Shown here piece by piece: positions 2,348-21,430 of a DNA stretch of 47,991 nt. The stretch is from positions 1 to 47,991 of the forward strand of contig CABZPR010000008.1 of assembly GCA_902527545.1 (NCBI GenBank), read 5' to 3'. The notes under the pieces are model-generated. The model saw only the letters and a program-made list of their open reading frames with translations, searched no databases and had not been told where the DNA came from. Source of the DNA: an uncultured Alphaproteobacteria bacterium. Lineage in GTDB: Bacteria > Pseudomonadota > Alphaproteobacteria > HIMB59. The position numbers and the translations under genes were made by a program. The number at the start of each line of letters is the position of its first letter. Position 1 is the stretch's first letter.

Positions 2348-2728
2348 ATGATAGGTTTTGTCATGGTTGGAACAAACGATCTTGATAAAGCTATTGGGTT
2401 TTATGATACCCTTCTTGATATTATTGATTTAAAGAGAATTGAAAAAACTGATACTTATGGCTCCTACGCCCCTAAATCAAATCCAGAAGCAGTAGAATTT
2501 TATGTTACAACTCCTTTCAATGAAGAAAAAGCAACTGTTGGTAACGGAACTCAAATTTCTTTTTATATAAGTAATAAAGACACTGTCGATACATTTCATT
2601 CTACTGCAATAAGATTAGGTGCAAAAGATGAAGGCGCCCCAGGTGAGAGATATGAGGGTGAGTATTATTCTTATATCAGAGATTTAGATGGCAACAAAAT
2701 TTGTGGTTACACTTACCTAAATAAATAG
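2348..2728 (+). CDS. VOC (glyoxalase/dioxygenase fold) family protein
   Basis: This 126-residue protein has the single-domain vicinal-oxygen-chelate layout: an opening strand with MVGTNDLDKAIGFYDTLL, a central strand carrying EFYV, and a closing strand with FYSYIRDLDGNK-like character (here SYIRDLDGNKICGY). Members include glyoxalase I, fosfomycin-resistance proteins and ring-cleavage dioxygenases; many small ones are lactoylglutathione-lyase-like. The ATG follows the aldehyde dehydrogenase TAG directly, so the two are surely cotranscribed. The reaction is not determinable from sequence; a role beside an aldehyde dehydrogenase, on a small carbonyl compound, would fit. Confidence 0.8.
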   Translation: MIGFVMVGTNDLDKAIGFYDTLLDIIDLKRIEKTDTYGSYAPKSNPEAVEFYVTTPFNEEKATVGNGTQISFYISNKDTVDTFHSTAIRLGAKDEGAPGERYEGEYYSYIRDLDGNKICGYTYLNK

Positions 2729-5784: not shown

Positions 5785-6674
5785 GATTTTTTTGTGTTTG
5801 GCGCTAGTACTACTGCTAAAATTCCACCAAGCACAATCATTGAACTTCCTAATATTTCACGCCAGCCAAAAGGCTCATCTGTCAAAATACTAGAACTAGT
5901 CACACCAACAAGTATCTCTGATAAAAAAAGAATGGAACACAAACCTGCACCTAATTTGCTAGGAGACCAGAATATTACTATACCTGTGGGTATAAAATAA
6001 AAAACAGATATAAAGAAAAGAAATGAAGACATTGCAACGAAAGAGTCCATTGTAGGCATAGGTCCTAAATAATCTTTCAAAAAGAAGCCAGCGACAATGT
6101 TAAATAAAGTTCCATAAAAAAAGAAAGAAAAAATTGTTGGGAATACACCATCTGTCTTTGCGATTTCTAATTTTATCATCCCGCCAGCAAATAATGCCCC
6201 TCCAGCAAAAGCTAACCAATCACCAGCATTCTCTGGTAAAGGGATTATCGTTTGCTTGCTAAATACCACCCACAGCCCCCCCAAAGCTAAACCAAGTGTT
6301 AAAGCTCTTTCGATCCCAGGTCTTTTTTTTAAAAATAAAATTTCAAAAATAGTAGTCCATATTGGTGTCATGTAAAAAAGTATTAATGCTCGAACTACAT
6401 CAGTTAAAAGAAAACTCAACGCATAACAAATAAAGCCGCCCCCACAAAGTAAGCCTGTTATCGGTAGCTCTAAACCAAAAGTTCTTCCATTAATTTTACG
6501 CCACACTGCAATTGGAGATAAAATTAAAACTCCAATAATCATTTGTGCGATAGTTCCCCAACCACCAGTAAGACCACCGTCTTCTAATATTCTTTGTGGT
6601 AACCAATATATACCCCATGATCCAGCTGATATAGCAAGGGCAGCTGCTATTTTATAATGATGAGGGTGCCTCAT
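5781..6674 (-). CDS. DMT-family (EamA) inner-membrane transporter
   Basis: A 297-residue, strongly hydrophobic protein with about ten predicted membrane helices arranged as two EamA repeats (roughly 5-140 and 150-290). Repeat boundaries show the usual LFYMTPIWTTIFE and LSEILVGVTSS type helices. EamA proteins carry metabolites, often exporting amino acids or related compounds. It lies between the amidase and methyltransferase-like genes with 5-base spacing and a 4-base overlap, so it likely moves a substrate or product of this operon. Direction of transport cannot be read from sequence. Confidence 0.88.
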   Translation of the reverse strand: MRHPHHYKIAAALAISAGSWGIYWLPQRILEDGGLTGGWGTIAQMIIGVLILSPIAVWRKINGRTFGLELPITGLLCGGGFICYALSFLLTDVVRALILFYMTPIWTTIFEILFLKKRPGIERALTLGLALGGLWVVFSKQTIIPLPENAGDWLAFAGGALFAGGMIKLEIAKTDGVFPTIFSFFFYGTLFNIVAGFFLKDYLGPMPTMDSFVAMSSFLFFISVFYFIPTGIVIFWSPSKLGAGLCSILFLSEILVGVTSSSILTDEPFGWREILGSSMIVLGGILAVVLAPNTKKS

Positions 6675-6679: not shown

Positions 6680-8095
6680 TTAATCTAACAGAGGTTTAAA
6701 CTTACTAAAGTTAAATATTTCCTCATATTTTTTTGCAAAAGCAAATAATTGTAAATCACTTTTCCTTTTTCCAATTATCTGCATACCCATTGGCATACCA
6801 AGTTCATCAAATCCGACAGGGATAGTGAATGTCGGTAATTCAAGAAGACTAGACAATATAAAAATTTCTAACCAACGGTGGTAAGTATCTAACTGAAAAG
6901 AATTTATTTTTTCAGGAAACTGTTGATTTTTATCAAACGGAAATAGTTGTGCAGAGGGTAAGGCTAGAAAATCAAAATTTTTAAAAATATTTTCAATTTG
7001 TTCTTCACACCTTTTTTTTTGTTTATAAGCACTATCTAAGTCTTCATTTTTTATATTTTTTCCGTGATTGTACTCCCATATTGCTTGGTAAGTCATTGTA
7101 TTAATATCTTTTATCTTCATTGCTAAAGTATCTTCGTAAATACTTTTTGATCTAAATGTAATCCAACTATTCCATAGAGCTTCATTATCAAAATCTGGTT
7201 TTAATCTTTCAATTTTTACATACAAGTTTTCTAATTTTTTAAGTTGAGATTCACACATATCTAATATTTTTGTTTCAATTTTATAATTATTATTCATATT
7301 AGATAACCAACCTATTTTGATATTGGTTAAATCTTCATCTTTTATTTTTTGATTTTTAAAAAGTTCTTTTAAATCAAAAGAATAATTATCCCTTGTATCA
7401 CTTCCAATCATTTCATCTAATAAAAATGCCATATCACTTGGTGATTTTGCTAAACAACCAGGTGTTGTGAGTATTGGAATTTTTGATAATTGGGTCCCTC
7501 TATCAACTGAAATTAAGCCAGGTGTAGGTCTGTATCCATAAATATTTGCATATGCTGCTGGTCCTCTGCATGATCCCATTTGATCAGTGCCGTCTGCAAA
7601 TGGTATTAGTCCTGCTGCCACAGCAGTACTGGCTCCTCCACTTGATCCTGCTGCAGATTTTGTATTATCATAATAATTAGAAGTTGGGCCAAACAATCTG
7701 TTTATTGTATGTCCACCAACACCTAATTCTGCTGTGTTAGTCTTTCCAATTATAATAGCTCCGCTTTTAATAAGACGTTCAACAAACAATGAATTTTTTT
7801 TGGGAAAATAATCTTTTGTTCCAGGATAGCCATATGTTGTTTTAATGCCAACTACATCACTTAAATCTTTAATAGCTATGGGAATTCCATCTAAAGTCTT
7901 CTCAGATTGAGTTGAATTATCTTTATATATAGCTTCTTTTATAAGATCCCCTCTATCCTTGAGAAGAACTATTGCATTTAAATCTGGATTAAATTTTTCA
8001 ATTCTATCCAAATAGTATTCCATTACCTCTTTAATAGATATTTGTCGCTGATTTATATTGTGTATTATTTCTTCAACAGATTGATCCTCAAGCAT
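6680..8095 (-). CDS. Amidase-signature family hydrolase
   Basis: A complete 471-residue amidase-signature enzyme hydrolysing a C-N amide bond in the cytosol. The Ser-cisSer-Lys triad is visible: Lys76 in GIPIAIKDL, the cis-serine Ser151 in AAGSSGG, and the nucleophile Ser175 in TDQMGSCRGPA, 24 residues later as usual. The nucleophile loop is QMGSCRGPA rather than the common TGGSIRIPA, so it is not a typical GatA, and no gatB or gatC is adjacent. It is second in the operon, 6 bases after the alcohol dehydrogenase. The substrate is probably an amide imported or formed in this pathway. Confidence 0.9.
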   Translation of the reverse strand: MLEDQSVEEIIHNINQRQISIKEVMEYYLDRIEKFNPDLNAIVLLKDRGDLIKEAIYKDNSTQSEKTLDGIPIAIKDLSDVVGIKTTYGYPGTKDYFPKKNSLFVERLIKSGAIIIGKTNTAELGVGGHTINRLFGPTSNYYDNTKSAAGSSGGASTAVAAGLIPFADGTDQMGSCRGPAAYANIYGYRPTPGLISVDRGTQLSKIPILTTPGCLAKSPSDMAFLLDEMIGSDTRDNYSFDLKELFKNQKIKDEDLTNIKIGWLSNMNNNYKIETKILDMCESQLKKLENLYVKIERLKPDFDNEALWNSWITFRSKSIYEDTLAMKIKDINTMTYQAIWEYNHGKNIKNEDLDSAYKQKKRCEEQIENIFKNFDFLALPSAQLFPFDKNQQFPEKINSFQLDTYHRWLEIFILSSLLELPTFTIPVGFDELGMPMGMQIIGKRKSDLQLFAFAKKYEEIFNFSKFKPLLD

Positions 8096-8101: not shown

Positions 8102-9292
8102 TTAGCGAGCTTGTTTTATACTTTGAGTAACAATGTCTTTCATTTGCAACAATGATGCTTCTTTTGGATTTGTTGCATAGGCTTGATCCTGCATAGCTTT
8201 TTTTGCAATCCTTTCAGCACAGTCTTCAGGAACATCAATTTCACTTAAACTTTTAGGGATATTTAATCTATCAAGTAACAATTCAATATTTTGAGTAAAT
8301 GCATTTACTGTATGATTTTCAAATTGCATGGCTTCTGACATTCTTTGAACTTTTTCATCCATACCTGGTAAATTGAAATGAAGAACAGGCGGTAAAACAA
8401 TAGCATTCGTTAAACCATGATGAGTATTAAATTCTGCTCCAACCATGTGGGATATTGAATGAACATTACCTAATCCCTTTAAAAAGGATATTCCTCCCAA
8501 ATATGATCCTATGATCATTGCACCTCTTGCCAACAAATTATTTGGTTCTTCTACAGCTAAAACAAGAGATTTTGAAATTAAATTAAGACTTTCCAAAGCA
8601 GCTCCATCACAAAGTGGATGAAAACCTGGCACACAGTATCCCTCGATACTATGTACAAGAGCATCGACACCTGTCCACGCTGTTAATTTTGGAGGTAATT
8701 CTAATGTTAACTCTGGATCTACTAGTGTGAATATAGGTCTTACATCTGGATGCCAGATGCAAAATTTCATTCCTTTTTCTAAATGTGTAACCATTGCTGT
8801 TATTTCTGTTTCAGCCCCGGTTCCTGCAGTTGTTGGGACAGTTATTATTTTTGGAAATGCATTTTCTTTTGTTATTTTTGGTACTGGTTGTTCAAACTCA
8901 AAATCCCATAATGGGGTTTCACTATTAACAGTTAAACATATAGACTTACCACCATCCATAGCACTACCACCACCAATAGCTATGATTGAGTCGTGACTTC
9001 CATTTTTAAACTGGTCACATCCTTTTGATATCTCATCATCTCGTGGGTTAGGCGATATATTATAAAATAAATCTGATTTAATATTATTTTTAGATAATAA
9101 TGCTATTAACTTCTTAATAAAAGGAAGATCCTTGCTGCCACTATCTGTTACAATAAGAGGATTTTTAATATCAAATTCCTCACAAAATTTTGCAATTTCA
9201 TTAAATCTCCCTGGTCCGTAATATGTGGTTGTCGGAAAAGTCCAGTCTTGGTTAGAGAGGATATCTTTTTCGTTTAGTTTAAAGTTTTTCAT
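8102..9292 (-). CDS. Iron-type (group III) alcohol dehydrogenase
   Basis: A 396-residue member of the Fe-ADH family: the nucleotide motif GGGSAMDGGKS at 107-117, VPTTAGTGAE at 152-161, and metal ligands Asp210 and His214 (GVDALVHSIEGY), His278 (GLGNVHS) and His292 (NTHHGL), spaced as in FucO. It interconverts an alcohol and an aldehyde or ketone with NAD(P)H. It is the first gene of the minus-strand operon 9292-3670; the promoter must lie in the 41 bases shared with the divergent transporter at 9334 or inside that gene. Maleylacetate reductase and hydroxyacid-oxoacid transhydrogenase are related alternatives. Confidence 0.92.
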   Translation of the reverse strand: MKNFKLNEKDILSNQDWTFPTTTYYGPGRFNEIAKFCEEFDIKNPLIVTDSGSKDLPFIKKLIALLSKNNIKSDLFYNISPNPRDDEISKGCDQFKNGSHDSIIAIGGGSAMDGGKSICLTVNSETPLWDFEFEQPVPKITKENAFPKIITVPTTAGTGAETEITAMVTHLEKGMKFCIWHPDVRPIFTLVDPELTLELPPKLTAWTGVDALVHSIEGYCVPGFHPLCDGAALESLNLISKSLVLAVEEPNNLLARGAMIIGSYLGGISFLKGLGNVHSISHMVGAEFNTHHGLTNAIVLPPVLHFNLPGMDEKVQRMSEAMQFENHTVNAFTQNIELLLDRLNIPKSLSEIDVPEDCAERIAKKAMQDQAYATNPKEASLLQMKDIVTQSIKQAR

Positions 9293-9333: not shown

Positions 9334-10245
9334 ATGATTAATTTTATTTATAATCAAAAAAATACATTTCTTGCAATCTCTGCAATGGTTATTGGAGTTA
9401 TATTCATAGATATACATGGATTGATTGTAAAATATTTAGGAGGTGAGTATTCTACAATTCAACTAGCTCTTTTTAGAAATACTTTTGCGATAATCCCCCT
9501 AATACTTTTACTAATTTATAATAAAGAAAGCTCAGACCTTTTTAAAAATTTAAATAAAAAATTTATTTTATTTTGTTTTATCAGAGGTTCTTGTTTTTTG
9601 GCTATTAATATCTTGTATTACATTGCAATAAATAATATGGAATTTGCTACAGCATCTACACTAACTTTTTCCTCTACATTTTTTATAGTAATTTTATCAA
9701 TCTTCTTTTTAGGAGACAGAGTGGGTATATATAGATGGTCAGCTGTTATAATTGGCTTTGTTGGAGTTGTAATGATTATGAAACCTAATAGTAGTATTTT
9801 TTCTTATTATTCCATTTTACCAATACTAGTTGCTTTCTTATGGGCTGTCCAAGTGATAGTACTAAAATTTATACCAGATAATTTTTCTACAGGAAAAATT
9901 CAATTCTATTCTCTCTTTTCATCTTTTCTTGGTTCATTAATATTTATTTTTTTTACAACTGGTCATACATATATTGAGAGCAATACTGACTTTTTAATTT
10001 TATCATTAATTGGTATTTTTGGAGGAACAGCTGCAATTCTATTTATTTACTCTTATAGGTTAATAGCAGCTAGTAAAATCGCAGTTTTTGAATATTTAGC
10101 AATACCCTCATCTTTTATTCTAGCATGGATATTTTTTGGTGAAGCACCTTTTGATCAACTTTTCCCTGGAGTTTTATTAATAGTTTTTGCTGGAATGATT
10201 ATTATTTGGAGAGATAAAAATAAGAAAATTAATAAACCAAACTAA
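9334..10245 (+). CDS. DMT-family (EamA) inner-membrane transporter
   Basis: A 303-residue protein with about ten membrane helices in two EamA repeats (roughly 10-145 and 155-295). The first repeat ends in a helix followed by LGDRVGIYRWSAVIIGFVGV, a pattern typical of S-adenosylmethionine/RhaT-like exporters; the second ends FFGEAPFDQLFPGVLLIVF. It is divergent from the alcohol dehydrogenase operon across 41 bases and convergent with the ATPase gene ending at 10255. Substrate unknown. It is only distantly similar to the exporter at 5781-6674. Confidence 0.88.
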   Translation: MINFIYNQKNTFLAISAMVIGVIFIDIHGLIVKYLGGEYSTIQLALFRNTFAIIPLILLLIYNKESSDLFKNLNKKFILFCFIRGSCFLAINILYYIAINNMEFATASTLTFSSTFFIVILSIFFLGDRVGIYRWSAVIIGFVGVVMIMKPNSSIFSYYSILPILVAFLWAVQVIVLKFIPDNFSTGKIQFYSLFSSFLGSLIFIFFTTGHTYIESNTDFLILSLIGIFGGTAAILFIYSYRLIAASKIAVFEYLAIPSSFILAWIFFGEAPFDQLFPGVLLIVFAGMIIIWRDKNKKINKPN

Positions 10246-10254: not shown

Positions 10255-11289
10255 TCATTTAGATTTCATAGACTTCATGACTATGGTTCGATCAATTTCT
10301 CCAACTAACTCACCAGATTGTGCATTTATTATAGGGTAGGCTGTATCATCCTCACATATCTGGTCAATTAATGTTTCAATTTTAGCATTTTCATCTATGC
10401 ATTTAGTTTTATCTGAAAATAATTTCTTTGACTCATCAGAACATTCCTTACGCATAACTTTTCCAGCACTTAATACTTTATATTTTGGAACATCTTCACA
10501 AAAATCTTTAACGTATTTGTCAACTGGATTTGCCACAATTTCTTCAGGTGTTCCAACTTGAGAAATCTCTCCATCTTTCATGATAGCAATATGATCGCCC
10601 ATTTTTATTGCCTCTAAAAAATCATGAGTAATAAATACCATAGTGCGTTGCAATTTTTTTTGAATGTCTAATAGCTCGTCTTGCATTTCTCGTCTAATTA
10701 ATGGGTCTAAAGCAGAAAATGGCTCATCAAATATTAAGATTTCTGGTTCAACTGCCATCGCTCGTGCTAAACCAACTCTTTGTTGCATTCCTCCCGAGAG
10801 TTCTCTTGGATAATTATTATGCCAACCTTTTAAACCAACAAGATTTAAAGACTCTGTAGCCTTGTCTAATCTTTCTTGTTTTTTTTCTCCCCTAATTTCT
10901 AAACCATAAGAAATATTTTCAAGAACTGTCCGATGTGGAAAAAGACCAAAGTGTTGAAATACCATACTCATTTTATTTCTTCTAAGATCTAGAAGGCTAT
11001 TTCTACTTATTTTTGTAATGTCAGTATCATCAATAATTACCGATCCAGATGTAGGTTCAATTAATCTAGTTAAACATCTTACTAAAGTTGATTTTCCACT
11101 ACCTGATAATCCCATTACAACAAAGGTTTCACCTTTTTGAATGGAAAAGCTGACATCTTTTACAGCTACTACATGTCCAGTTTTTTCTTGGACTTCGTCT
11201 CTACTTAAATTTGGATCTAAATTGTCTAAAATTCTTTTTTCATCATTGCCAAAAATTTTCCATATATTTGAGCAAATAATTTTATCCAT
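10255..11289 (-). CDS. proV: Quaternary-amine/betaine ABC importer, ATPase subunit (ProV/OpuAA type)
   Basis: The 344-residue ATPase has an N-terminal extension typical of ProV (about 40 residues before the core), Walker A GLSGSGKST at 60-68, the Q-loop FQHFGLFPH at 111-119, signature LSGGMQQR at 164-171 and Walker B LIFDEP at 185-190. The tail (280-344) looks like one shortened CBS-type regulatory segment instead of two full CBS domains. It energises uptake of a glycine-betaine-like compound. It is divergent from the permease gene across 97 bases, so subunits are split between two transcripts, with the binding protein further away at 18848. Confidence 0.92.
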   Translation of the reverse strand: MDKIICSNIWKIFGNDEKRILDNLDPNLSRDEVQEKTGHVVAVKDVSFSIQKGETFVVMGLSGSGKSTLVRCLTRLIEPTSGSVIIDDTDITKISRNSLLDLRRNKMSMVFQHFGLFPHRTVLENISYGLEIRGEKKQERLDKATESLNLVGLKGWHNNYPRELSGGMQQRVGLARAMAVEPEILIFDEPFSALDPLIRREMQDELLDIQKKLQRTMVFITHDFLEAIKMGDHIAIMKDGEISQVGTPEEIVANPVDKYVKDFCEDVPKYKVLSAGKVMRKECSDESKKLFSDKTKCIDENAKIETLIDQICEDDTAYPIINAQSGELVGEIDRTIVMKSMKSK

Positions 11290-11386: not shown

Positions 11387-13510
11387 ATGTCTTTAGATCA
11401 AAATACAGCCATTAAAAATAAATTAAATAAAAATATAATCTTTTACATAAGTATTTTTATTATTGGGGCAGTAGCATATTATCTGTCGATTATTAATGAA
11501 GATCCTACAGTATTTCCTAAATCTATTACTGATGAATTTAAATTTACTGCATGGATAAATGCCGGAGAGGATTATTTAAAAGATAACTATAGATGGATAA
11601 CGAGATTATTTGCATCTTTTTTACAAGCTGGTTACATGGCCTTGGAAAATTTCTTTGTTGAGTCTCCATGGATTTTAATAATGTCTTTAATGGCTCTTCC
11701 AGCTCTAGCATATGGAGGTATAAAACTAGCCCTATTTTGTATGTTTACAGTTTATTTTTGGGGAGCTGTGGATATGTGGGAAGTCTCAATGCAAACATTA
11801 GCATTAATGGGCTTATCAGTAATTTTATCTGTAATTTTTGGAGTTATCCTAGGAATACTCAGTTCTCAAAGTGATAGATTTGAAAATTTTCTAAAACCTA
11901 TTTTAGACACCATGCAAGTAATGCCTGCCTTTGTATATTTATTCCCCGCTATGTTCTTTTTTGGAATTGGTGGTGCTCCAGCAATACTTGCTACATTAAT
12001 TTATGCTATGCCTCCAATTATTAGGTTAACAAATTTAGGAATAAGACAAGTATCTAAAGAAACAATAGAGTCAGCTGAGTCTTTTGGATCTAATAAATTT
12101 CAGCTTTTATTTAAAATTAAAATTCCAATGGCCTTACCAAGTATTATGATGGGTGTTAATCAAACAATTATGATGGCATTAGCTTTAGTTGTTCTTGCTA
12201 CTTTTATTGGTGCTGAGGGTTTAGGTGGTCAAGTATGGCAAGCAATTAGAAAATTAGATGTTGGTTGGGCAATGGAAGGGGGCTTGTGTATTTTATTTAT
12301 GGCAATAATGTTTGACAGAATAAGTAGTGCTATTAGTAAAGAAAAAGAAACCTTACCAGATGATGTAGAAAAATTTTACTTATTACCGCAAAATTTACAC
12401 AGAAACCCCATCGCAAACTTAATTGAGTTACCCTTGAGAATATCTGTAAAGCTTATAAATATATTTTTTAGAACTATTATTAATGTCTTTGCTAATATAA
12501 TTGCTAGCTTAATTTCTCTTTTTAATAAATCTAATAATAATTCAATTAAAAATTTTATAAATCAACGATATTTTTTATTCTCATCATTTTTAATTTTTAT
12601 ATTCATTTTTATTTTTGATGCATACATTTATACTATAGGAACTTTCCCAGAAACTTGGACAATTGATATCCAAAAACCAATAGAAGATACTGTTAAGGCA
12701 ATGACTCTTGATCCTGGTTTTATATCATTTGCGAAAGGTATGAAGTATTTTGTTTACTTGTATTTACTAAACCCATTAAATTTATTTCTTACTCAGATAC
12801 CTTGGTGGTATACAATGATTGTTTTCATACTTATTGGATATGTGACTGTAGGAATAAAGTTTGCCACAATTACTGCGATATTATTAGCCTTTATTGGAGC
12901 TACAGGTATGTGGGTGCATTCAATGATTACGTTATCTTCAGTATTGGTTTCAGTATTAATTTGCTTTGTTATAGGTGTACCGCTTGGAGTAATAGCATCC
13001 TACAATAAATGGTACAGAGATATCCAAAATGTTGTTTTAGATGCAATGCAAACTTTGCCTTATTTTTGCTATTTAATTCCTGTTTTAATGTTTTTTGGTG
13101 GAAATATAGTATCTGCAGTTATTGCAACTGTTATATATTCTGTACCACCAATAATAAGATTAACAGCTCTTGGTTTGTCACAAGTGTCAGGAAGCTATTC
13201 AGAGGTATCTAAATCTTTTGGAGGAACAGGAATTCAAACTTTAAATAAAGTAAAATTTCCATTAGCTGTACCCAGTCTCGTTATGGGTTTTAATCAAACT
13301 GTAATTATGGCTTTCGCAATGCAAATTGTTACACCATTGATTGGAGGAAAAGGTCTAGGACTCCAAGTATTTAACGCACTTCAAAGATCAGATACAGGTA
13401 GAGGTCTATCAGCTGGTTTGGCTATCGTTCTTCTTGCTATTATCATAGATAGGATAACCCACGCCTGGACTAAGAAGCAAAGACAAGCCCTTGGATTAGA
13501 TAAATCCTAA
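11387..13510 (+). CDS. proW: Betaine-type ABC importer permease, two ProW domains fused
   Basis: This 707-residue membrane protein contains two consecutive BPD_transp_1 domains. The first (about 130-310) holds the EAA-like loop IKIPMALPSIMMGVNQT and the second (about 510-700) the matching loop VKFPLAVPSLVMGFNQT; both are followed by I-G-x-x-G-L-G-x-Q-V. ProW is normally a single domain (about 350 aa) working as a homodimer, so here both halves of the pore are one polypeptide, and each begins with its own N-terminal helices. The stop TAA shares a base with the next ATG, so the molybdoenzyme is translationally coupled to import. Confidence 0.93.
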   Translation: MSLDQNTAIKNKLNKNIIFYISIFIIGAVAYYLSIINEDPTVFPKSITDEFKFTAWINAGEDYLKDNYRWITRLFASFLQAGYMALENFFVESPWILIMSLMALPALAYGGIKLALFCMFTVYFWGAVDMWEVSMQTLALMGLSVILSVIFGVILGILSSQSDRFENFLKPILDTMQVMPAFVYLFPAMFFFGIGGAPAILATLIYAMPPIIRLTNLGIRQVSKETIESAESFGSNKFQLLFKIKIPMALPSIMMGVNQTIMMALALVVLATFIGAEGLGGQVWQAIRKLDVGWAMEGGLCILFMAIMFDRISSAISKEKETLPDDVEKFYLLPQNLHRNPIANLIELPLRISVKLINIFFRTIINVFANIIASLISLFNKSNNNSIKNFINQRYFLFSSFLIFIFIFIFDAYIYTIGTFPETWTIDIQKPIEDTVKAMTLDPGFISFAKGMKYFVYLYLLNPLNLFLTQIPWWYTMIVFILIGYVTVGIKFATITAILLAFIGATGMWVHSMITLSSVLVSVLICFVIGVPLGVIASYNKWYRDIQNVVLDAMQTLPYFCYLIPVLMFFGGNIVSAVIATVIYSVPPIIRLTALGLSQVSGSYSEVSKSFGGTGIQTLNKVKFPLAVPSLVMGFNQTVIMAFAMQIVTPLIGGKGLGLQVFNALQRSDTGRGLSAGLAIVLLAIIIDRITHAWTKKQRQALGLDKS

Positions 13511-15855
13511 TGGGTTTTAAGAAAGATCTTCCCTTAACTAGTTCGCATTGGGGAACTTATAGAGCAAAAGTAAATAATGGGAAAGTTACAGAATTAATTG
13601 GATGGGAAAATGATAAAGATCCATCACCAATAGGTCCAGGTATAGTAGACATTCACGATAATAAAACGCGAATTGATAAACCTATGATAAGAAAAAGTTG
13701 GATTGATAATGGACCAGGAACAAACAATAACTTAAGAGGGATTGATCCTTTTGTAGCTGTATCTTGGGATGAAGCTGAAAATATAGTGGCAAAAGAATTA
13801 AATAGAGTAAGAGAAAACTTTGGTAATTCCTCAATATTTGGTGGATCTTATGGCTGGGCTAGTGCTGGAAGATTTCATCATGCTCAAAGTCAACTACATC
13901 GTTTTTTAAATTGCATTGGTGGCTACACAAGATCAAAGTTTACTTATAGTTTTGCAGCAGCAGAAGCAATGGTTCCCCATATACTTGGAAGTTATAGAGC
14001 CTATCTTGATACTTGCACTAGTTGGGACTCAATCGAAGAAAACACAGAACTATTTGTATGTTTTGGAGGAGTTCCTTTAAAAAATGGTCAAATTGCCCAA
14101 GGTGGTACTGGAAGTCATAATCAAAAAGAAAAACTTATTAGTTCCGCTAAAGCTGGCATAAAATTTGTAAATTTGAGTCCATTGAAAAGTGACTTGTTAG
14201 ATGAGGTTAAAGGAAAGTGGTTACCTTTAAGACCTAATACTGATGTAGCAATTATGCTCGGTCTAGCACACACTCTATACAAAGAAAATTTATATAGTGA
14301 AATATTTATTAAAAAATACACAGAAGGTTTTGATATTTTTTTACCATATCTTTTAGGAGATTTAGATGGAGTTGTAAAAGATGCTAATTGGGCTTCAGAA
14401 ATAAGTGAAATCTCATCAGATGAAATTATTTCTTTGGCAAGAGACATGTCCTCAAAGCGAACTATGATATCTGTTAGTTGGTCTTTAACTCGCCAAGATC
14501 ATGGTGAACAGCCTTTTTGGGCAGCAATTATGTTGGCATCAATGTTGGGTCAAATAGGTTTACCAGGTGGTGGTTTTGGATTTGGTTATAGTGCAACAAA
14601 TCACATTGGTGGTCAGTTTTCTATTATTCCTGGAGCTGCTTTTCCACAATCTGACAATAAAATTGATAATTTTATCCCAGTTGCAAGGATTAGTGACTTA
14701 CTTTTAAATCCGGGTGAAACTTTTCATTTTGATGGCAAGGAGTATGAATATCCTGATATTAAATTAATTTATTGGGCAGGTGGAAATCCATTTCATCATC
14801 ATCAAGATATTAATAAACTTTTGCTAGCTTGGCAAAAACCTGAAACTATCATTTCTAATGAATGGTGCTGGAATTCTTTAGCTAAATATTCAGATATTAT
14901 CTTACCTTGTACCACTCCACTTGAAAGACAAGATATAATGCTTACCCCAAGAGATCCTTATGTAATTTCAATGTCAAAATTAGTTGAACCTTTTAAAGAG
15001 GCTAAAAGTGATTTTGATATTTTTAAAGGAATTGCAAAAAAAATGGATGTAGAAAATCTTTTTACTGAAGGAAGAGATGAAGAAGATTGGCAAAAATGGA
15101 TTTATCAAGAAACATCAGTCAAATCAAAATCATTAAAAAATATTGATTTTCCTAGCTATCAGGAGTTTAGAAAAATAGGGTGGTTTAAAGTTCCACCACC
15201 AAAAGAAAATACAATAATGTTAAAAGATTTCAGAGAAGATCCTACTAAATTCCCGCTCTCAACTCCAAGTGGAAAAATAGAAATATATTCTAAAACAGTA
15301 GATAGTTTTAATTATGATGATTGTCCTGGTCATCCAACCTGGTTAGAACCCTGTGAATGGCTTGGTAGTAAAAATAAAAACTATCCTTTACATTTAATAT
15401 CTAATCAACCAAAAAATAAATTACATAGTCAAATGGATCACGGAGGCTATAGTAAATCTTTTAAAATTAAAGATCGTGAGCCAATTGAAATGAATAGTGT
15501 TGATGCGAGCAATCGAGGAATAAATGAGGGAGATATAGTAAAACTTTTTAATGACAGAGGTTCCTGTTTAGCTGGTGTAAACATTAATGATAATATTCGC
15601 CCTGGAGTTGTTCAAATTAGTACAGGTGCATGGTACGACCCTGAGGACTCTAAAAATTTAAAAACTATCTGTAAACATGGTAATCCTAATGTCCTTACAA
15701 AAGACAAAGGAACTTCAAAATTAGGTCAAGGTCCTATAGCACACTCATGTCTCATCGAAGTAGAATTAGTTAAAGATAAAATTTCACCTGTGACTGCATT
15801 TGATCCTCCTGTTATTATTCGTGATTATAAATCTAATAGAGTCATTGATAAATAA
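13510..15855 (+). CDS. Cytosolic molybdopterin S/N-oxide reductase (DMSO reductase family, BisC-like)
   Basis: A 781-residue bis-MGD enzyme of the DMSO/TMAO/biotin-sulfoxide reductase group. Key residues fall at the same numbers as mature Rhodobacter DMSO reductase: Tyr114 and Trp116 (SYGWAS) and the Mo-ligand Ser147 (FTYSFAAAEAMVPHILG). From memory, Tyr114 is lacking in TMAO reductase TorA and favours S-oxides. There is no twin-arginine signal and no N-terminal FeS motif, as in cytosolic BisC (777 aa). The C-terminal domain starts near 620 with YPLHLISNQPKNKLHSQ and binds the cofactor. Lying between an osmolyte permease and a folate-dependent methyltransferase-like gene suggests it reduces an imported oxide; methionine or biotin sulfoxide are alternatives. 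Confidence 0.92.
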   Translation: MGFKKDLPLTSSHWGTYRAKVNNGKVTELIGWENDKDPSPIGPGIVDIHDNKTRIDKPMIRKSWIDNGPGTNNNLRGIDPFVAVSWDEAENIVAKELNRVRENFGNSSIFGGSYGWASAGRFHHAQSQLHRFLNCIGGYTRSKFTYSFAAAEAMVPHILGSYRAYLDTCTSWDSIEENTELFVCFGGVPLKNGQIAQGGTGSHNQKEKLISSAKAGIKFVNLSPLKSDLLDEVKGKWLPLRPNTDVAIMLGLAHTLYKENLYSEIFIKKYTEGFDIFLPYLLGDLDGVVKDANWASEISEISSDEIISLARDMSSKRTMISVSWSLTRQDHGEQPFWAAIMLASMLGQIGLPGGGFGFGYSATNHIGGQFSIIPGAAFPQSDNKIDNFIPVARISDLLLNPGETFHFDGKEYEYPDIKLIYWAGGNPFHHHQDINKLLLAWQKPETIISNEWCWNSLAKYSDIILPCTTPLERQDIMLTPRDPYVISMSKLVEPFKEAKSDFDIFKGIAKKMDVENLFTEGRDEEDWQKWIYQETSVKSKSLKNIDFPSYQEFRKIGWFKVPPPKENTIMLKDFREDPTKFPLSTPSGKIEIYSKTVDSFNYDDCPGHPTWLEPCEWLGSKNKNYPLHLISNQPKNKLHSQMDHGGYSKSFKIKDREPIEMNSVDASNRGINEGDIVKLFNDRGSCLAGVNINDNIRPGVVQISTGAWYDPEDSKNLKTICKHGNPNVLTKDKGTSKLGQGPIAHSCLIEVELVKDKISPVTAFDPPVIIRDYKSNRVIDK

Positions 15856-17052
15856 ATGGGAAATTTACAAGAAGAAGCTGATCTAAACCAAACAATTCAA
15901 ATTAGTGCGCGTAGATTTGAAGAGTCTCCATTCATTCAGCGCACTAATACTTTGAACATGGTCAGAGGTGTTTATGCAGGAAGATACTTTCCTATGAAAA
16001 TTGATGAAGATCCTTCAGAAAAATATTGGCTTTTAAGACAAAAAGCTCTTTTATTTGATGTTCCAGAAAAACCGATAGAAATATCAGGAAAAGACTCAGT
16101 TTCTTTTTTGAATAAAGTACTGACAAGAGATATTTCAAAAACAAAAATTGGCAGAGGTTATTATGCACTTGCCTGTACACCAAAAGGTGGAATTTTCATG
16201 GATGGAGTTTTATTTAGATTTGATGAAGAAAAGTTTTGGTACGTTCAAGCAGATGGCCCATTTGAAGATTGGCTTATTGCTCATAGTTCAAATTATGATG
16301 TTCAAATAAAAGACCCTAAATCTAGAGTTCTTCAAATTCAAGGTCCGGCATCAATCGATATCATGAAGTTAGCTTCCAGTGGAAAGATTGATGAAAATAT
16401 GCCTTATTTTACATCTAATTTTTTTGATTTAGGAGGGCAAACTTTATATGTCTCAAGAACAGGTTTTACAAATGAATTAGGATTTGAAATTTTTTGTGAT
16501 GGTTTTAAAACAGACCATTTGGCTCTATGGGACTATCTTATTGAATGTGGTAAACCATATGGTATGAAATTTTCTGCCTCTAGAGCCATGACAATTAGAA
16601 GAATTGAGGGTGGTATTTTTGGAAATTTAACTGATATAGATACAACAATTACTCCTTTCGAAGCTGGCCTTGGGTATTTTGTGAATATGGATAAAGATTT
16701 TATCGGTAAAGATGCTTTAATTAAAAAAGATAAAAGAACTTGTTTATTTGGAATAACTTGTAAAACCGCAGTTCCTAAAGCTGGAAGTAAAATAAAAATT
16801 AATGATAAACAAGTCGGTTACATAACAGCAGGTGTACCGTCTCCAACTCTCCAACAAGGAATTGGTTATGTAAGATTTTATGAACCAAATGATTATATGA
16901 ATAAAGAGATAGAAATAATTCTCCCAGATAATTCTTCACACACCGGAGTTGTTGTGGATTTACCTTTTTACGATAAAGAAAAAAAAATTGTAAAGGGTAT
17001 AGATAGATCTATTCCCATTAAACCTGAAAGTAATTCTTTCGATGCAAAATAA
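15856..17052 (+). CDS. GcvT/DmdA-like folate-dependent aminomethyltransferase-family protein
   Basis: A 398-residue stand-alone GcvT-fold protein. Visible family motifs include LFDVPEKP near 68, SRTGFTNELGFEIF around 200, the conserved RRIEGG near 252, and TPFEAGLGYFVNMDKDFIGK around 270-290, followed by a C-terminal barrel. Relatives use tetrahydrofolate to take a one-carbon or methyl group from glycine, sarcosine/dimethylglycine or DMSP (DmdA). It has no FAD domain, unlike dimethylglycine dehydrogenase. The start abuts the molybdoenzyme stop and the end overlaps the next gene by 11 bases. I infer a demethylation step on the imported compound; the actual methyl donor is unknown. Confidence 0.87.
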   Translation: MGNLQEEADLNQTIQISARRFEESPFIQRTNTLNMVRGVYAGRYFPMKIDEDPSEKYWLLRQKALLFDVPEKPIEISGKDSVSFLNKVLTRDISKTKIGRGYYALACTPKGGIFMDGVLFRFDEEKFWYVQADGPFEDWLIAHSSNYDVQIKDPKSRVLQIQGPASIDIMKLASSGKIDENMPYFTSNFFDLGGQTLYVSRTGFTNELGFEIFCDGFKTDHLALWDYLIECGKPYGMKFSASRAMTIRRIEGGIFGNLTDIDTTITPFEAGLGYFVNMDKDFIGKDALIKKDKRTCLFGITCKTAVPKAGSKIKINDKQVGYITAGVPSPTLQQGIGYVRFYEPNDYMNKEIEIILPDNSSHTGVVVDLPFYDKEKKIVKGIDRSIPIKPESNSFDAK

Positions 17053-17830
17053 TTTCCTTAAAAATAAAAAAATTATTTTATCTGCTGGTGCTTCTGGAAT
17101 AGGTCTAGCTACTGTAAAATTATTACTATCACAAGGTGCTTTTGTATATACTTGTGATATTGATAAAAAAAACATTAATAAATTAAAAAAAAATTCATAC
17201 TTTAATAAGAAACTCTTTATATCAGAATGCGATGCTTCAAAAGAAGATGAGGTAAAGAAATTTTATAAAGAAATATCATATAAAACTAAAAAAATAGATG
17301 GACTTATAAATAACATTGGAATAGCTGGACCCACATCCCCTTTAGAGAAAATTAAATCTGATGATTGGGAAAAAACTATACATGTAAATGTAAATAGTCA
17401 CTTTTATTTTACCAAATATGCGATACCCATGATTAAGAAATCTAAAAATGGGTCAATAATCAATATTTCCTCCACAGCTGGTATTGATGGTTTTCCTAAT
17501 AGATCTCCTTATGCGGCAAGCAAATGGGCCTTAGTTGGTATTACTAAAACTTTAGCAATGGAATTAGGAAAATTTAATATACGAGTAAATGCTATATGCC
17601 CTGGTTCTGTTAAAGGTGCGAGAATGATGAGAGTCATAAAAGCGAAAGCAAAAATGCTAAAGCGATCTGTAAGATCCATTGAAAAAGATTTTGTTTCTAT
17701 GAGTTCTTTAAAACAATGGGTTTATGAAGAAGATATAGCAAAAATGTGTTCCTTTTTAATTTCTCAAGATTCCCTTAGAGTCTCAGGTCAAGTAATTTCT
17801 ATTGATGGAAATACTGAGAGAATGGATTAG
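17042..17830 (+). CDS. Short-chain dehydrogenase/reductase (classical SDR)
   Basis: A complete 262-residue classical SDR. The cofactor motif reads SAGASGIG at 14-21 (Ser replaces the usual leading Thr), Asp39 at the end of the second strand suggests NAD(H) preference, LINNIG lies at 88-93, and the catalytic set is Ser144 (INISSTAG), Tyr157 and Lys161 (YAASK). The C-terminus has SGQVISIDGNTE. It oxidises or reduces a hydroxyl/keto group in the cytosol. The start lies inside the preceding methyltransferase-like gene, so it is the fourth gene of the permease operon; its end overlaps the convergent BKACE gene by 4 bases. Confidence 0.92.
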   Translation: MQNNFLKNKKIILSAGASGIGLATVKLLLSQGAFVYTCDIDKKNINKLKKNSYFNKKLFISECDASKEDEVKKFYKEISYKTKKIDGLINNIGIAGPTSPLEKIKSDDWEKTIHVNVNSHFYFTKYAIPMIKKSKNGSIINISSTAGIDGFPNRSPYAASKWALVGITKTLAMELGKFNIRVNAICPGSVKGARMMRVIKAKAKMLKRSVRSIEKDFVSMSSLKQWVYEEDIAKMCSFLISQDSLRVSGQVISIDGNTERMD

Positions 17831-18714
17831 GTTTTTTTTAGCTTTAAATAATCTCTTGTCTCTTGGGGACTCATAATAGAGGAGCCCAACTCATGAACTA
17901 TTTTTATTGCCTTCTCAACTAATTGTGGATTAGTTGCAAGTTTTCCCTTTGATAAATATAAATTATCTTCAAGCCCAACTCTGGGATTACCGCCAAGTAA
18001 AACTGTTTGTGCAACAAAGGGCATTTCATTTCTTGAAATTGCAAAGCCTGACCAAATAGCATTTTTAGGCATGACATCTAACATTGCAATCATAGCTGTA
18101 GTTTTTGCTGGAGCTCCCCAAGGAATTCCTAAACACATTTGATATAAGGGTGGGTCGCTTAGTAGTCCTTCTTCATAAAGCTGAGCTCCAAACCACATGT
18201 TACCTAAATCAAATGCTTCAACTTCAGGTTTAACTCCAATTTCTTTTAATCGTTTTGCTGCTTTTCTTAAATCATTTGGTGTATTGACCGCCAACACAGA
18301 ACTATCACCAAAATTTAAAGTTCCAGCATCAAGTGTACATATTTCAGGTAGTAATTCCTCTACATGAGATATTCTTTCCATAATATTAGCCATATCAGTA
18401 TATGGACCAAAATCCATTGGGTTATCTCCTTCACCTATATCTAAATCACCTCCCATACCAGTTGTTAAATTAATAATTACATCAGTGTTACTCGATCTAA
18501 TTATTTCAACTACTTCCTTATAAAATTCAAATTTTCGACTAGGTGTTCCATCTTCCTCTCTGACATGAATATGAACTATAGATGCACCTGCTTGAGCAGA
18601 CTCTATTGCGGATTTTGCTATTTGTTTTGGAGTCTTTGGAAGATCAGGATGTTTTGATGCAGTGTCACCGGATCCATTAACAGCACATGTAAGAAATACT
18701 TTAGTTTTCATCAT
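17827..18714 (-). CDS. BKACE (beta-keto acid cleavage enzyme, DUF849)
   Basis: A 295-residue TIM barrel of the 3-keto-5-aminohexanoate cleavage family, which condenses a beta-keto acid with acetyl-CoA to give acetoacetate and a new CoA ester. Zinc ligands His48 and His50 are seen in VHIHVREEDG, and Glu249 in VGLEDN is the likely third ligand. One characterised branch cleaves 3-dehydrocarnitine to betainyl-CoA and acetoacetate, which would suit a betaine-type transporter and SDR next door, but the substrate class cannot be set by eye. Two adjacent ATGs are possible starts. It is divergent from the binding-protein gene across 133 bases. Confidence 0.9.
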   Translation of the reverse strand: MMKTKVFLTCAVNGSGDTASKHPDLPKTPKQIAKSAIESAQAGASIVHIHVREEDGTPSRKFEFYKEVVEIIRSSNTDVIINLTTGMGGDLDIGEGDNPMDFGPYTDMANIMERISHVEELLPEICTLDAGTLNFGDSSVLAVNTPNDLRKAAKRLKEIGVKPEVEAFDLGNMWFGAQLYEEGLLSDPPLYQMCLGIPWGAPAKTTAMIAMLDVMPKNAIWSGFAISRNEMPFVAQTVLLGGNPRVGLEDNLYLSKGKLATNPQLVEKAIKIVHELGSSIMSPQETRDYLKLKKT

Positions 18715-18847: not shown

Positions 18848-19849
18848 ATGAGAATATCTAAAACAATTATTACTTTTATTCTATCCTCTATTCTTTTTAC
18901 CGCAACATTCAGTAAAGCTAATGCCGAAAAATTATTAGCAGCTATCGCTGACTGGACAGGTGGAGAGATTTCATGTCAAGTAGCTGTAAGCATACTTGAA
19001 GATGAGTTAGGATACGAAATTGATAGAATCGTATTTGCCTCAGGAACTGGCTTGTGGGAAGCTATTGCTGCAGGTGATATTGATTTTGCATGTGAGTCAT
19101 GGCCTAGTTACGCTGAAGCTGATGATGTTATGTTAAATGGCGACTTAATTCATGGTGGGGAAGTTAAAATGACTTACTCTGGTGATGGAAGTGTAAAATT
19201 ACTTGGAACTGTTGGTATTACTGGTATGTCAGATTATTATGTTCCAAAATATTGGGCTGATGCAAATCCAGATTTTTCTAGCTATGCTGATTTAAATAAA
19301 TTCAAAGAAGATTTTGCGACTATGGAGTCTGGTGGTAAAGGTCGATTAATTGGTTGTCCAGTTGCTGGTTGGAACTGTCATGATCAAAAAAGATTAGACC
19401 TACTTGGTTTAGACTTTGTTGCTGATGAATTAGGAACTGAAACAGCTGCTCTTGCTGAAGCGCAAGGTATGTACGATAGAGGTGAACCTTTCTTAATGTA
19501 TCTTTGGGAGCCTCATTGGTTCTTTGGTGTTAACGAATTAGTAGGTGTAAAATTAGCTCCAAATAAAACTTGTGATACCTTTACCGAGGCAAACAACTGG
19601 GAAACTTGTGGAGCTGACTATTGGCCAGCAACAGGTTGGGCTGTTGACTATCCAATGAACTACGGTAATCCTGATACATTTGCTAAACCAGAAAACCAAA
19701 AAGCACTTGAATTCTTTGGTAAAATGGCATTATCAAATGCAGATCAAGCAGCTATGCTCGTTAAAGTTCGTGAAGGTGGTGAACTTAATGATGTTGTTGC
19801 TGAATGGAAAGCAAACAATAAATCTACTTGGGAGAAATGGTTACCATAA
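18848..19849 (+). CDS. proX: Periplasmic glycine-betaine/quaternary-compound binding protein (OpuAC family)
   Basis: A 333-residue secreted solute-binding protein. Residues 1-26 form a signal peptide, probably cut after SKANA. The mature part begins KLLAAIADWTGGE and carries tryptophans suited to an aromatic cage for a methylated cation: Trp36, Trp85 (CESWPSY), Trp220 and Trp224 (LWEPHW). Several cysteines (43, 82, 170, 177 and two near 240-252) could form disulfides. It should feed the ATPase and fused permease at 10255-13510, though it is transcribed alone. A stem-loop follows the gene. Ligand could be betaine, carnitine, choline or a sulfonium such as DMSP. Confidence 0.92.
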   Translation: MRISKTIITFILSSILFTATFSKANAEKLLAAIADWTGGEISCQVAVSILEDELGYEIDRIVFASGTGLWEAIAAGDIDFACESWPSYAEADDVMLNGDLIHGGEVKMTYSGDGSVKLLGTVGITGMSDYYVPKYWADANPDFSSYADLNKFKEDFATMESGGKGRLIGCPVAGWNCHDQKRLDLLGLDFVADELGTETAALAEAQGMYDRGEPFLMYLWEPHWFFGVNELVGVKLAPNKTCDTFTEANNWETCGADYWPATGWAVDYPMNYGNPDTFAKPENQKALEFFGKMALSNADQAAMLVKVREGGELNDVVAEWKANNKSTWEKWLP

Positions 19850-19933: not shown

Positions 19934-21430
19934 TTGACAGACTCACTCTATTCAAATCTTGTTGAAACTAATTTAGACAATAATAAAACTTTTTTAATAT
20001 TAGATGATGGATCCGAGATTACTTATAAAAATTTCATAATTCTTGCATCAAAAATTTCTCACAAATTATCAAAGTTAGGTTTAAAATCAGGAAGTCACAT
20101 TCTTGTAAAGTCCGCCAAATGTAAAGAGACTTTAGCTCTTTATTTATCATCTATTCTTACTGGGTCAGTTTTTTTTCCACTTAATACAAGCTATACAGTT
20201 AATGAAACAATTTATTTTATAAAGGACTCAAAACCATCTTTTCTTATCTGTGATAAATCAGAAATAGATAGTTTAAAACCATTTTGCGATGAAATTGGCT
20301 GTAGAATTTTATCTTTAAATGCAAACGGAGTTGGAGAGATTACTGATGGTTTAGAAAACCTTGATAGTTTTTTTGAACCATCAAAAAGAACATATAATGA
20401 TTTAGCAGCACTTTTATATACCTCTGGGACTACAGGAAAACCTAAAGGTGCTATGTTAACTGAACAAAATTTAGTTTCAAACGCAAAAGAACTAATAAAT
20501 TTATGGAACATAAATCGCAATGATACTTTAATCCATTCACTTCCAATTTATCATACTCATGGATTGTTTGTTGCTATTAATACCTCCATGATAAGTGGGG
20601 CTACTATTAGATTTATAAAAAATTTTAATACAGACTCAATTATTGAAGCATTTAATTATTCAACTCTGATGATGGGTGTTCCAACTTTTTATACGAGATT
20701 GTTGAATGACAAAAGACTAGATAAGAAATTAACACAAAATATGAGATTATTTATATCTGGAAGTGCTCCATTGTTAAATCAAACATTTAAAAATTTTTAT
20801 AGAGTAACCGGTCATCAAATATTAGAGAGATATGGTATGACTGAAACTAATATGAATGCCTCTAATCCTTGTGATGGGGAGAGAAAAGCAGGATCAGTTG
20901 GTAAACCTTTAAAAGATATTAAAATAAGAATAAATAATATTCAAAGTGATAATAATAAATCAAAAAATGATATTGGAACAATAGAAATAAATGGTCCTAA
21001 TGTATTTAAAGGTTATCTAAATAATCCAAAAAAGACACAAGAGGCATTTACTAAAGATGGATTTTTTATAACCGGTGATATTGGATATTTTGATAATGAT
21101 GGATATCTATTCATATCTGGAAGAAATAAAGATTTAATCATAAGTGGTGGATATAATGTTTATCCTAAAGAAATTGAAGATATTATTAATCAACACGAAT
21201 TAGTTTTAGAGTCTGCTGTTTTTGGTATCCCTAATGACGATTTAGGTGAAGTACCTATTGCAGCTATAGTTATGAAGAATAATTCTACAGATTTAAATGA
21301 TCTTAAAGATTTTTTAAAAAAACACTTAGTGAAATATAAAATTCCATATAAATATATATTGTTGGATGAACTTCCAAAAAACGTAATGGGAAAAGTTCAA
21401 AAAAATACTTTAAAAGAAAAATATTCCTAA
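19934..21430 (+). CDS. matB: Malonyl-CoA synthetase (MatB-like acyl-CoA synthetase)
   Basis: A 498-residue AMP-forming acyl-CoA synthetase: YTSGTTGKPKG at 162-172, LPIYHTHGLFVA around 203-214, RLFISGSAPL at 271-280, the ERYGMTETNMNASNP block at 298-312, and the adenylation lysine near the end in VMGKVQKN. The ISGSAPL and TNMNASNP blocks are characteristic of MatB/ACSF3, which converts malonate (or methylmalonate), CoA and ATP to malonyl-CoA. The start is TTG at 19934: an in-frame stop lies three codons upstream and no better start follows nearby; no clear ribosome site is seen. It sits 85 bases after the binding-protein gene, beyond the stem-loop. Confidence 0.85.
   Translation: MTDSLYSNLVETNLDNNKTFLILDDGSEITYKNFIILASKISHKLSKLGLKSGSHILVKSAKCKETLALYLSSILTGSVFFPLNTSYTVNETIYFIKDSKPSFLICDKSEIDSLKPFCDEIGCRILSLNANGVGEITDGLENLDSFFEPSKRTYNDLAALLYTSGTTGKPKGAMLTEQNLVSNAKELINLWNINRNDTLIHSLPIYHTHGLFVAINTSMISGATIRFIKNFNTDSIIEAFNYSTLMMGVPTFYTRLLNDKRLDKKLTQNMRLFISGSAPLLNQTFKNFYRVTGHQILERYGMTETNMNASNPCDGERKAGSVGKPLKDIKIRINNIQSDNNKSKNDIGTIEINGPNVFKGYLNNPKKTQEAFTKDGFFITGDIGYFDNDGYLFISGRNKDLIISGGYNVYPKEIEDIINQHELVLESAVFGIPNDDLGEVPIAAIVMKNNSTDLNDLKDFLKKHLVKYKIPYKYILLDELPKNVMGKVQKNTLKEKYS

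Follow-up and report, generated by a model that had tools for sequence, protein, structure and literature searches.

Introduction

Sulfonium osmolytes account for a large share of the organic sulfur of the ocean, and in the demethylation route for dimethylsulfoniopropionate (DMSP) the compound is imported by DmpXWV, demethylated by DmdA and processed further by DmdB, DmdC and DmdD. Here we describe an island of genes in a 47,991-nucleotide contig of an uncultured alphaproteobacterium of the HIMB59 clade (the window; contig 8 of a 1.30 Mb genome that is 87% complete), in which a betaine-type ATP-binding cassette (ABC) importer, a cytosolic molybdoenzyme of the dimethyl sulfoxide (DMSO) reductase family (MOLY) and a GcvT-like folate methyltransferase (GCVT) stand together. 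The island resembles the DMSP route in its folate-dependent demethylase of the GcvT fold, its betaine-type ABC import and methanethiol as a likely product. It differs in that GCVT scores below the DmdA cut-off and a true DmdA is encoded elsewhere in the genome, and in adding a molybdoenzyme, an iron-containing alcohol dehydrogenase (Fe-ADH), an aldehyde dehydrogenase (ALDH) and a carbon-carbon lyase. According to a section of PMC10030565, the DmpXWV genes lie apart from the known genes of DMSP catabolism.

Three other described systems bear comparison. The operon for trimethylamine N-oxide (TMAO), made up of the TmoXVW importer and the demethylase Tdm, likewise pairs ABC import with a GcvT-type folate step, and a paralogue of GCVT lies at Tdm; however, GCVT lacks the DUF1989 domain, and the folate domain of Tdm keeps the T-protein Asp and branches elsewhere. 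BisC, DMSO reductase, TorZ and MtsZ have in common with MOLY their domain set, the Ser147 position, Tyr114 and Trp116, whereas MOLY belongs to a clade of its own with GCVT neighbours, outside of which BisC and TorZ fall. Finally, an Arctic SAR11 island is described in part of PMC12421898 as holding betaine ABC genes, choline dehydrogenase (CHDH), ALDH, carnitine dehydrogenase (CDH) and the cleavage enzyme BKACE. Betaine ABC, ALDH, BKACE, carnitine dehydrogenase and DMT-type transporter neighbours recur around our loci, so that for BKACE the context is already known, whereas the sections of that paper on the island mention no molybdoenzyme or GcvT-like demethylase. Searches of the open-licence PubMed Central literature (subscription papers lay outside their scope) returned no description of the present cluster and no match for reduction or demethylation of dimethylsulfoxonium propionate (DMSOP); biotin sulfoxide reductase together with SAR11 led to a saltmarsh study of DMSO reduction, in the relevant parts of which the cluster is not described.

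The cluster is real, conserved and made of known families, and from these we infer its biochemical role. We tentatively read it, with slightly less than even confidence, as serving the catabolism of a methylated onium osmolyte, for which a dimethylsulfonium compound is the likeliest candidate; MOLY would act on its S-oxide form and GCVT would pass a methyl group to folate.

Gene content and conservation of the island

The genes on which this reading turns are as follows, by position in the window.

917..2347, plus strand: ALDH, HpaE/BADH-like (TIGR02299 423 bits and TIGR01804 417 bits, both below cut-off)
8102..9292, minus strand: Fe-ADH, core gene (PF00465)
10255..11289, minus strand: ProV-type ABC ATPase (TIGR01186 369.9 bits, cut-off 326.6)
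11387..13510, plus strand: fused double ProW-type permease (two PF00528 stretches; choline permease profile TIGR03416 425 bits, cut-off 363)
13510..15855, plus strand: MOLY, cytosolic DMSO-reductase-family molybdoenzyme, core gene (placed by domains, active-site residues and tree)
15856..17052, plus strand: GCVT, GcvT-like folate methyltransferase, core gene (GCV_T and GCV_T_C domains)
17042..17830, plus strand: FabG-like short-chain dehydrogenase/reductase (SDR), in a genus-specific position (NF009466 215.2 bits, cut-off 222)
17827..18714, minus strand: BKACE (PF05853 299.8 bits, assigned by this domain)
18848..19849, plus strand: OpuAC-type substrate-binding protein (SBP; PF04069 119.6 bits; 61-66% identity in SAR11 loci)

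An earlier note, made from the letters alone, had named the permease, MOLY, GCVT and SDR. All four open reading frames (ORFs) lie on the plus strand where it placed them, with the junctions it gave (a 1-base overlap of permease and MOLY, no gap between MOLY and GCVT, an 11-base overlap of GCVT and SDR), and its fused betaine-type permease is borne out by two BPD_transp_1 stretches and a TIGR03416 score above cut-off. It overlooked the ATPase, the binding protein, Fe-ADH, ALDH and BKACE, the last being a separate minus-strand gene (17827-18714) inside the very range it covered. The betaine/choline ABC importer is complete, with ProV, ProW and OpuAC components all present, and its ligand is a prediction.

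In the window's genus, represented by 37 genomes of which many are incomplete, MOLY was found in 24, as against 0 of 23 genomes of a sister family (f2); weaker matches at 24-27% in the same search are a different, mostly longer molybdoenzyme. Below, G denotes a genome, L a locus stretch and G000 the window's own genome. Cluster-type GCVT occurs in the same 24 genomes and adjoins MOLY everywhere except in G020, where the two are split over two contigs, at contig ends. BKACE and the SBP are present in 25 of the 37 (G008 has both at a contig end), and a 98% identical MOLY lies on a contig labelled only as uncultured Alphaproteobacteria. The order ATPase-permease-MOLY-GCVT-SDR-BKACE-SBP-MatB is identical in every genus locus retrieved, up to the contig limits, with the exception of G030 (L056), in which an L-carnitine-dehydrogenase-like gene stands between SDR and BKACE; its near relative L080 has an equally long ORF in that gap, and G036 (L042) has different genes beyond the ATPase. 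A complete genus genome of 1.41 Mb is without the MOLY-GCVT set, and the island is therefore accessory in the genus.

To look more widely we scanned genome contigs for MOLY and took the best 80 loci (more exist), each bounded at 10 kb or by contig ends. GCVT adjoins MOLY in 12 of these and 68 have no cluster-type GCVT, by ORF comparison and again by tblastn. Five of the 12 belong to the window's genus or very near relatives, five to the Pelagibacteraceae (SAR11) and two to one uncultured Roseovarius; at least four are the same contigs as genomes in the genus sample. In L081 a cluster-type GCVT lies on another contig of the same genome, none was found in nine further alphaproteobacterial MOLY loci, and once identity drops under about 65%, most MOLY relatives stand among different genes.

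Four of the five SAR11 loci from the scan read amidase-Fe-ADH-DMT-ATPase-permease-MOLY-GCVT-SBP, and the fifth, L077, begins inside the permease; SDR or BKACE directly follows GCVT in none of the five. Among 397 sampled genomes from the family of the SAR11 genome G835, seven carry MOLY (G835 and six others), and all six others have permease-MOLY-GCVT-SBP with Fe-ADH and amidase upstream. MOLY, GCVT and permease are thus adjacent in 11 of 11 SAR11 loci, MOLY and permease being one base apart in L075 and L076. A CitE-like lyase is found in four of the six further loci and in L083, and an SDR orthologue, never adjoining GCVT, in 2 of the 11 (L077, L241). Fe-ADH is present at 70-74% identity in 10 of the 11 (the contig of L077 is cut) and at 63% in L081.

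The third lineage is the Roseobacter family, namely that of the Roseovarius genome, where 15 of 394 genomes have a related GCVT and 13 the cluster type. MOLY lies directly beside GCVT in 10 of these 13 (as a contig-end piece in G664 and G473); G604, G454 and G819 have no MOLY by GCVT, and in these the best MOLY-like match is on a different contig, at 45%, 61% and 60% respectively. With several contigs short, neighbour counts are lower bounds: Fe-ADH directly after GCVT in 6 of 13, ALDH near in 7, CitE in 6 and a methanethiol-oxidase-like (MtoX-like) gene in 3. No Roseobacter locus has an SDR orthologue directly after GCVT; L228 has an SDR (31%) nearby. ALDH homologues reach 53-57% in this family; in SAR11 the figures are 69% (L240) and, for an incomplete ORF in L076, 80%.

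Recurrence of the gene order in the genus, SAR11 and Roseobacter shows that the arrangement is not chance. Fe-ADH is linked in all three taxa, in differing arrangements, and ALDH in the Roseobacter family and part of the SAR11 loci; the core is MOLY, GCVT, Fe-ADH and often ALDH, plus a CitE-like carbon-carbon lyase outside the window's genus. An SDR within a conserved four-gene core, as first proposed, is ruled out by the SAR11 and Roseobacter gene orders, since an SDR immediately after GCVT is confined to the window's genus and its close relatives. What survives of the four-gene order in those lineages is permease-MOLY-GCVT or MOLY-GCVT. The companion idea, that import, oxide reduction and demethylation form one process, gains from the recurrence of importer, MOLY and GCVT together and loses from the 3 of 13 Roseobacter-family genomes without an adjacent MOLY.

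The GcvT-like protein

On the DmdA profile NF009133 GCVT scores 160 bits (cut-off 410), compared with 480 bits for the true DmdA of the same genome (G000:C5:68792-69823). A tree of 39 rows, for which the program warned of long branches and in which the GcvT outgroup is not clean, unites the 11 cluster GCVTs in one clade (100/100). Nearest to them are a paralogue at the TMAO demethylase and one beside a GMC dehydrogenase, then a type found in Phaeobacter and f2, and all of these together are sister to DmdA plus DmdA-like proteins (100/99), with TdmC, dimethylglycine dehydrogenase (DMGDH)/SoxA and GcvT outside the grouping. Profile score and clade exclude GCVT as a DmdA; the first description of it as GcvT/DmdA-like stands insofar as it lies on the DmdA side of the family.

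Asp97 of E. coli GcvT, which we take to be the catalytic Asp, is replaced by Met115 in the window's GCVT and by Met in all 11 cluster rows, and the position is Asn in DmdA rows and Asp in Tdm folate domains. GCVT is hence like DmdA both in its adjoining clade and in the missing T-protein Asp, and, by analogy, the loss points to methyl transfer rather than methylene capture. PDB entry 3a8k, titled ETD97N, is E. coli GcvT with this Asp mutated. GCVT is not a TMAO demethylase either, having no DUF1989, only GCV_T and GCV_T_C, and scoring 192.8 of 1100 bits on NF053776. Its AlphaFold model, of mean pLDDT 65.8, showed no clear preference among T-proteins, dimethylglycine oxidase, DmdA and DMGDH as structural matches.

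Several relatives of GCVT occur in other settings. The stand-alone paralogue (47-49% to GCVT) directly follows the TMAO demethylase in G000 (L058:8179-11716, on G000:C4) and lies near it in G029, a complete genus genome (L057:8785-13778), with TmoXVW-like transporter genes; the TMAO demethylase beside it already has its own folate domain. A GMC (choline dehydrogenase-like) gene paired with a second GcvT-like gene stands beside Roseobacter clusters in L218:7358-10736, L222:14856-18184, L224:3034-6406 and L190:312-3690. In f2, a Phaeobacter-plasmid-type GcvT (57%) and a true DmdA lie close together in L063:4628-10276, separated by a few genes, among them those for an FMN-dependent dehydrogenase and a thiamine pyrophosphate enzyme.

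The molybdoenzyme

MOLY belongs to the DMSO reductase superfamily by its domains (PF00384 190 bits, PF01568 89 bits) and falls short of the bisC_fam profile TIGR00509 (943.9 bits, cut-off 1017.55). As predicted, it is of the cytosolic kind. It lacks the N-terminal extension of E. coli TorA and TorZ, and its near-full-length alignment to DMSO reductase chains runs without offset through Ser113-Tyr114-Gly115-Trp116 and Ser147, so that the three active-site residues Tyr114, Trp116 and Ser147 are in place. All three are also present in BisC and TorZ, and among 12 sequences compared only TorA is without Tyr at position 114. The use of Tyr114 as a marker for S-oxides is consequently weakened, the same Tyr occurring in E. 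coli BisC and TorZ.

In a rapid tree with 81 sequences, of which 73 come from the 80 scan loci and 8 from elsewhere (7 loci without a picked MOLY ORF were left out), the 14 GCVT-linked MOLYs form one clade with SH-aLRT support of 84, or 100 when L081 is included. Most of its nearest relatives come from Rhodobacterales. The grouping with BisC that would have counted against the earlier note was not seen, E. coli BisC and TorZ standing apart, and MOLY as an orthodox BisC is excluded. Because some GCVT clusters are without MOLY, it looks like an add-on to a GCVT core.

More distant MOLY relatives keep varied company. On a Ponticoccus plasmid (L034:6806-15329) a relative at 52% is surrounded by what resembles a methylthioadenosine-salvage cluster (mtnA, transketolase-like and RuBisCO-like genes), and in Sulfitobacter one lies among formamidase-type genes. 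In Phaeobacter and Tritonibacter, mobilizable or conjugative plasmids (L032:9218-23797, L031:9292-23865) pair a MOLY (60%) with a DmdA-side GcvT (36-37%) and add an AMP-binding ligase, crotonase, SDR, ALDH and TRAP transporter, possibly a related pathway on mobile DNA.

Carbon-carbon cleavage and carnitine genes

The CitE/RipC-like lyase scores 253-254 bits on NF038242 (two Roseobacter copies scored; cut-off 375), and a SAR11 copy matches PF03328. No such protein was found in G000 at E<=1e-20, and one at 34-36% occurs in 4 of the 24 other genus genomes searched. The window's genus has SDR and BKACE where the SAR11 and Roseobacter clusters have CitE, which suggests that the former stand in for the latter; both modules suit 3-hydroxy or 3-keto acids. 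An L-carnitine-dehydrogenase-like gene adjoins BKACE relatives in G030, in L241 and in 17 of 19 BKACE-bearing f2 genomes; three such proteins scored 343-349 of 414 bits. None lies beside the window's BKACE, and G000 has a distant match only.

Proposed pathway and competing explanations

In the sulfonium pathway that we prefer, the betaine-type ABC system (SBP, fused permease and ATPase) would import the osmolyte, cytosolic MOLY would reduce a sulfoxonium or sulfoxide to the sulfonium or thioether, and GCVT would move a single methyl group off the onium centre and onto tetrahydrofolate, as DmdA does. The island's homocysteine methyltransferases may also accept a methyl, sulfonium-type methyl donors being suited to such enzymes. 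Fe-ADH and ALDH would then oxidise the carbon side chain, which would be shortened by the CitE-like lyase in SAR11 and Roseobacter or by SDR and BKACE in the window's genus; methanethiol may also be set free, for MtoX to oxidise in clusters that have it. The block is shared by small ocean bacteria and algae-associated relatives, and its target seems to be an algal methylated solute, probably one containing sulfur.

The choice of sulfur draws on an SBP56/MtoX-type protein (PF05694 690 bits; 159 bits on the NCBIfam MtoX profile, below its cut-off of 650), whose gene follows CitE on the same strand in Roseobacter L079, L219 (where the contig end cuts it) and L220 (in pieces). A methanethiol-oxidase-like gene in three loci argues for sulfur, and this, rather than Tyr114, is what favours the sulfur in the earlier note's S-oxide or sulfoxonium substrate; we also count for sulfur a formaldehyde-activating GFA protein in L216, the kinship of GCVT with DmdA and the homocysteine methyltransferases. 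Several observations pull the other way. MtoX is present in 3 of 7 CitE-bearing Roseobacter loci, being absent from L082, L225 and L227 (the contig of L217 ends there), the window's cluster has none, and only 1 of the best 80 MOLY loci has one. The closest paralogues of GCVT stand beside the TMAO demethylase and a BetA-like GMC gene, both nitrogen-osmolyte contexts, and loss of Asp97 is not specific to DmdA, one DMGDH-type row having Ser and L070_810 Cys. G604, G454 and G819 keep cluster-type GCVT without an adjacent MOLY. L241 holds both CitE and SDR/BKACE, which leaves replacement of the one by the other only a suggestion, and a distant CitE (34%) in G003, a genome with MOLY and BKACE, weakens it further. 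Sulfur is weighed above nitrogen, not safely so.

A nitrogen osmolyte (an N-oxide, or something akin to carnitine or choline) would have MOLY reduce the N-oxide, GCVT take an N-methyl and SDR/BKACE form a carnitine branch. The betaine/choline type of SBP, permease and ATPase is what one would expect of it, as are the L-carnitine-dehydrogenase-like genes beside BKACE relatives in G030, L241 and f2, the GCVT paralogue at the TMAO demethylase with its TmoXVW-like genes, and a GMC choline-dehydrogenase-like gene (L082) and BetI-type TetR regulators in Roseobacter loci; the latter adjoin the SBP gene in L218 and L219, both of the loci examined. Tyr114 is also found in E. coli TorZ, annotated as TMAO reductase 2. 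We nevertheless think this rather unlikely: a quaternary nitrogen is not open to N-oxidation, three clusters have the MtoX-like gene, GCVT falls with DmdA and not with the folate domains of TMAO demethylase, DMGDH or sarcosine oxidase, and the same genome has a separate TMAO operon. The Arctic SAR11 betaine/carnitine island with BKACE, as outlined in part of PMC12421898, is a further parallel for nitrogen. Somewhat unlikely, in our view, is that MOLY serves metabolite repair, reducing accidental sulfoxides of a thioether intermediate in a pathway that starts from the unoxidised sulfonium; the other proposed steps are compatible with it. GCVT clusters without adjacent MOLY (G604, G454, G819) fit this role, as does the Ponticoccus relative among methylthioadenosine-salvage genes, a setting of thioether handling, whereas the position of MOLY immediately after the permease (1-base overlap in the window, 1-base distance in L075 and L076) does not.

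Two named substrates have little probability. Gonyol, which is 5-dimethylsulfonio-3-hydroxypentanoate, or its S-oxide would lose two carbons through CitE or SDR and BKACE, with ALDH oxidising the aldehyde. Both cleavage modules suit such 3-hydroxy or 3-keto acids, and a class III CoA transferase lies beside the SBP in SAR11 L240; against gonyol, this is the sole locus in which a gene for CoA activation was seen, and we know of no S-oxide of the compound. In the sections of PMC7221440 on substrate use, all four bacteria tested used gonyol and the authors inferred an alternative pathway, but R. pomeroyi produced no methanethiol from it and only A. faecalis a little; gonyol use, and methanethiol release from dimethylsulfonioacetate, are given there as proceeding by routes not yet known. 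We regard a gonyol-type substrate as quite improbable. The earlier note's specific guess was DMSOP, imported, reduced to DMSP and demethylated by GCVT to methylmercaptopropionate. It is possible and not favoured, with a probability we would set very low: the pairing of MOLY and GCVT fits, and DMSOP is described in part of PMC10686828 as an abundant marine compound on which the action of DmdA is open and named a future priority, but the genome's own DmdA, above its cut-off, makes a second DMSP demethylase unnecessary, the alcohol and aldehyde dehydrogenases, the CitE or BKACE cleavage and the amidase are left unexplained, and the four solved-structure matches of the SBP include no protein named as DMSP-binding. 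The AlphaFold model of the SBP (mean pLDDT 57.4) was too low in confidence for a structure search.

Within the preferred sulfonium reading, a reductive entry to demethylation, in which MOLY reduces an imported sulfoxonium and a new DmdA-side demethylase follows in SAR11, the HIMB59-like clade and Roseobacter relatives, is doubtful taken by itself. If it is true, oxidised sulfonium osmolytes would have another route open to them besides being cleaved by a lyase to DMSO. The island names definite candidates (an importer, an oxide reductase, a new demethylase, dehydrogenases and a lyase) in several marine lineages, which lets ligand-binding and enzyme assays address the fate of sulfonium compounds.

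Remaining genes of the island

2348..2728, plus strand: putative VOC/glyoxalase-like protein, 126 aa (a similar-looking ORF at the same place in SAR11 L240 matches PF00903)
2746..3666, plus strand: homocysteine S-methyltransferase-like HMT1 (NF007020 135.6 bits, cut-off 215)
3670..4794, minus strand: enolase superfamily, sugar-acid dehydratase-like (profile scores below cut-offs)
4798..5784, minus strand: homocysteine S-methyltransferase-like HMT2 (best NCBIfam NF006396 101.7 bits, cut-off 453)
5781..6674, minus strand: DMT/EamA transporter (TIGR00950 44.8 bits, below cut-off; homologues in SAR11 loci)
6680..8095, minus strand: amidase (PF01425 265 bits)
9334..10245, plus strand: second DMT/EamA transporter (homologues in genus and SAR11 loci)
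19934..21430, plus strand: malonyl-CoA synthetase MatB (NF005702 642.1 bits, above the cut-off of 558; conserved in the genus)

Many of these also recur outside the genus. SAR11 loci hold homologues of HMT1 (54-59%; L239-L241, L244), of HMT2 (72-79%; L075, L083, L239, L242) and of the amidase (59-70%; 10 of 11 loci, the contig of L077 being cut), and Roseobacter-family loci hold the enolase-type protein at 41% (L218) and MatB at 48-49% near clusters in L218 and L190. SDR homologues at 53-55% occur in f2, adjoining a GMC dehydrogenase in both annotated loci. For an organoarsenic substrate, no arsenic gene appears among the recognised families, though no search was aimed at such genes. Between Fe-ADH and ALDH an ORF of 184-194 aa is found in L217:2623-3177, L216:5766-6329 and L219:2678-3262, the L217 copy being without a Pfam or NCBIfam match. 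Beyond the island, GC content falls to 21% at 24001-26000 of the window, compared with 30-36% in its first 20 kb.

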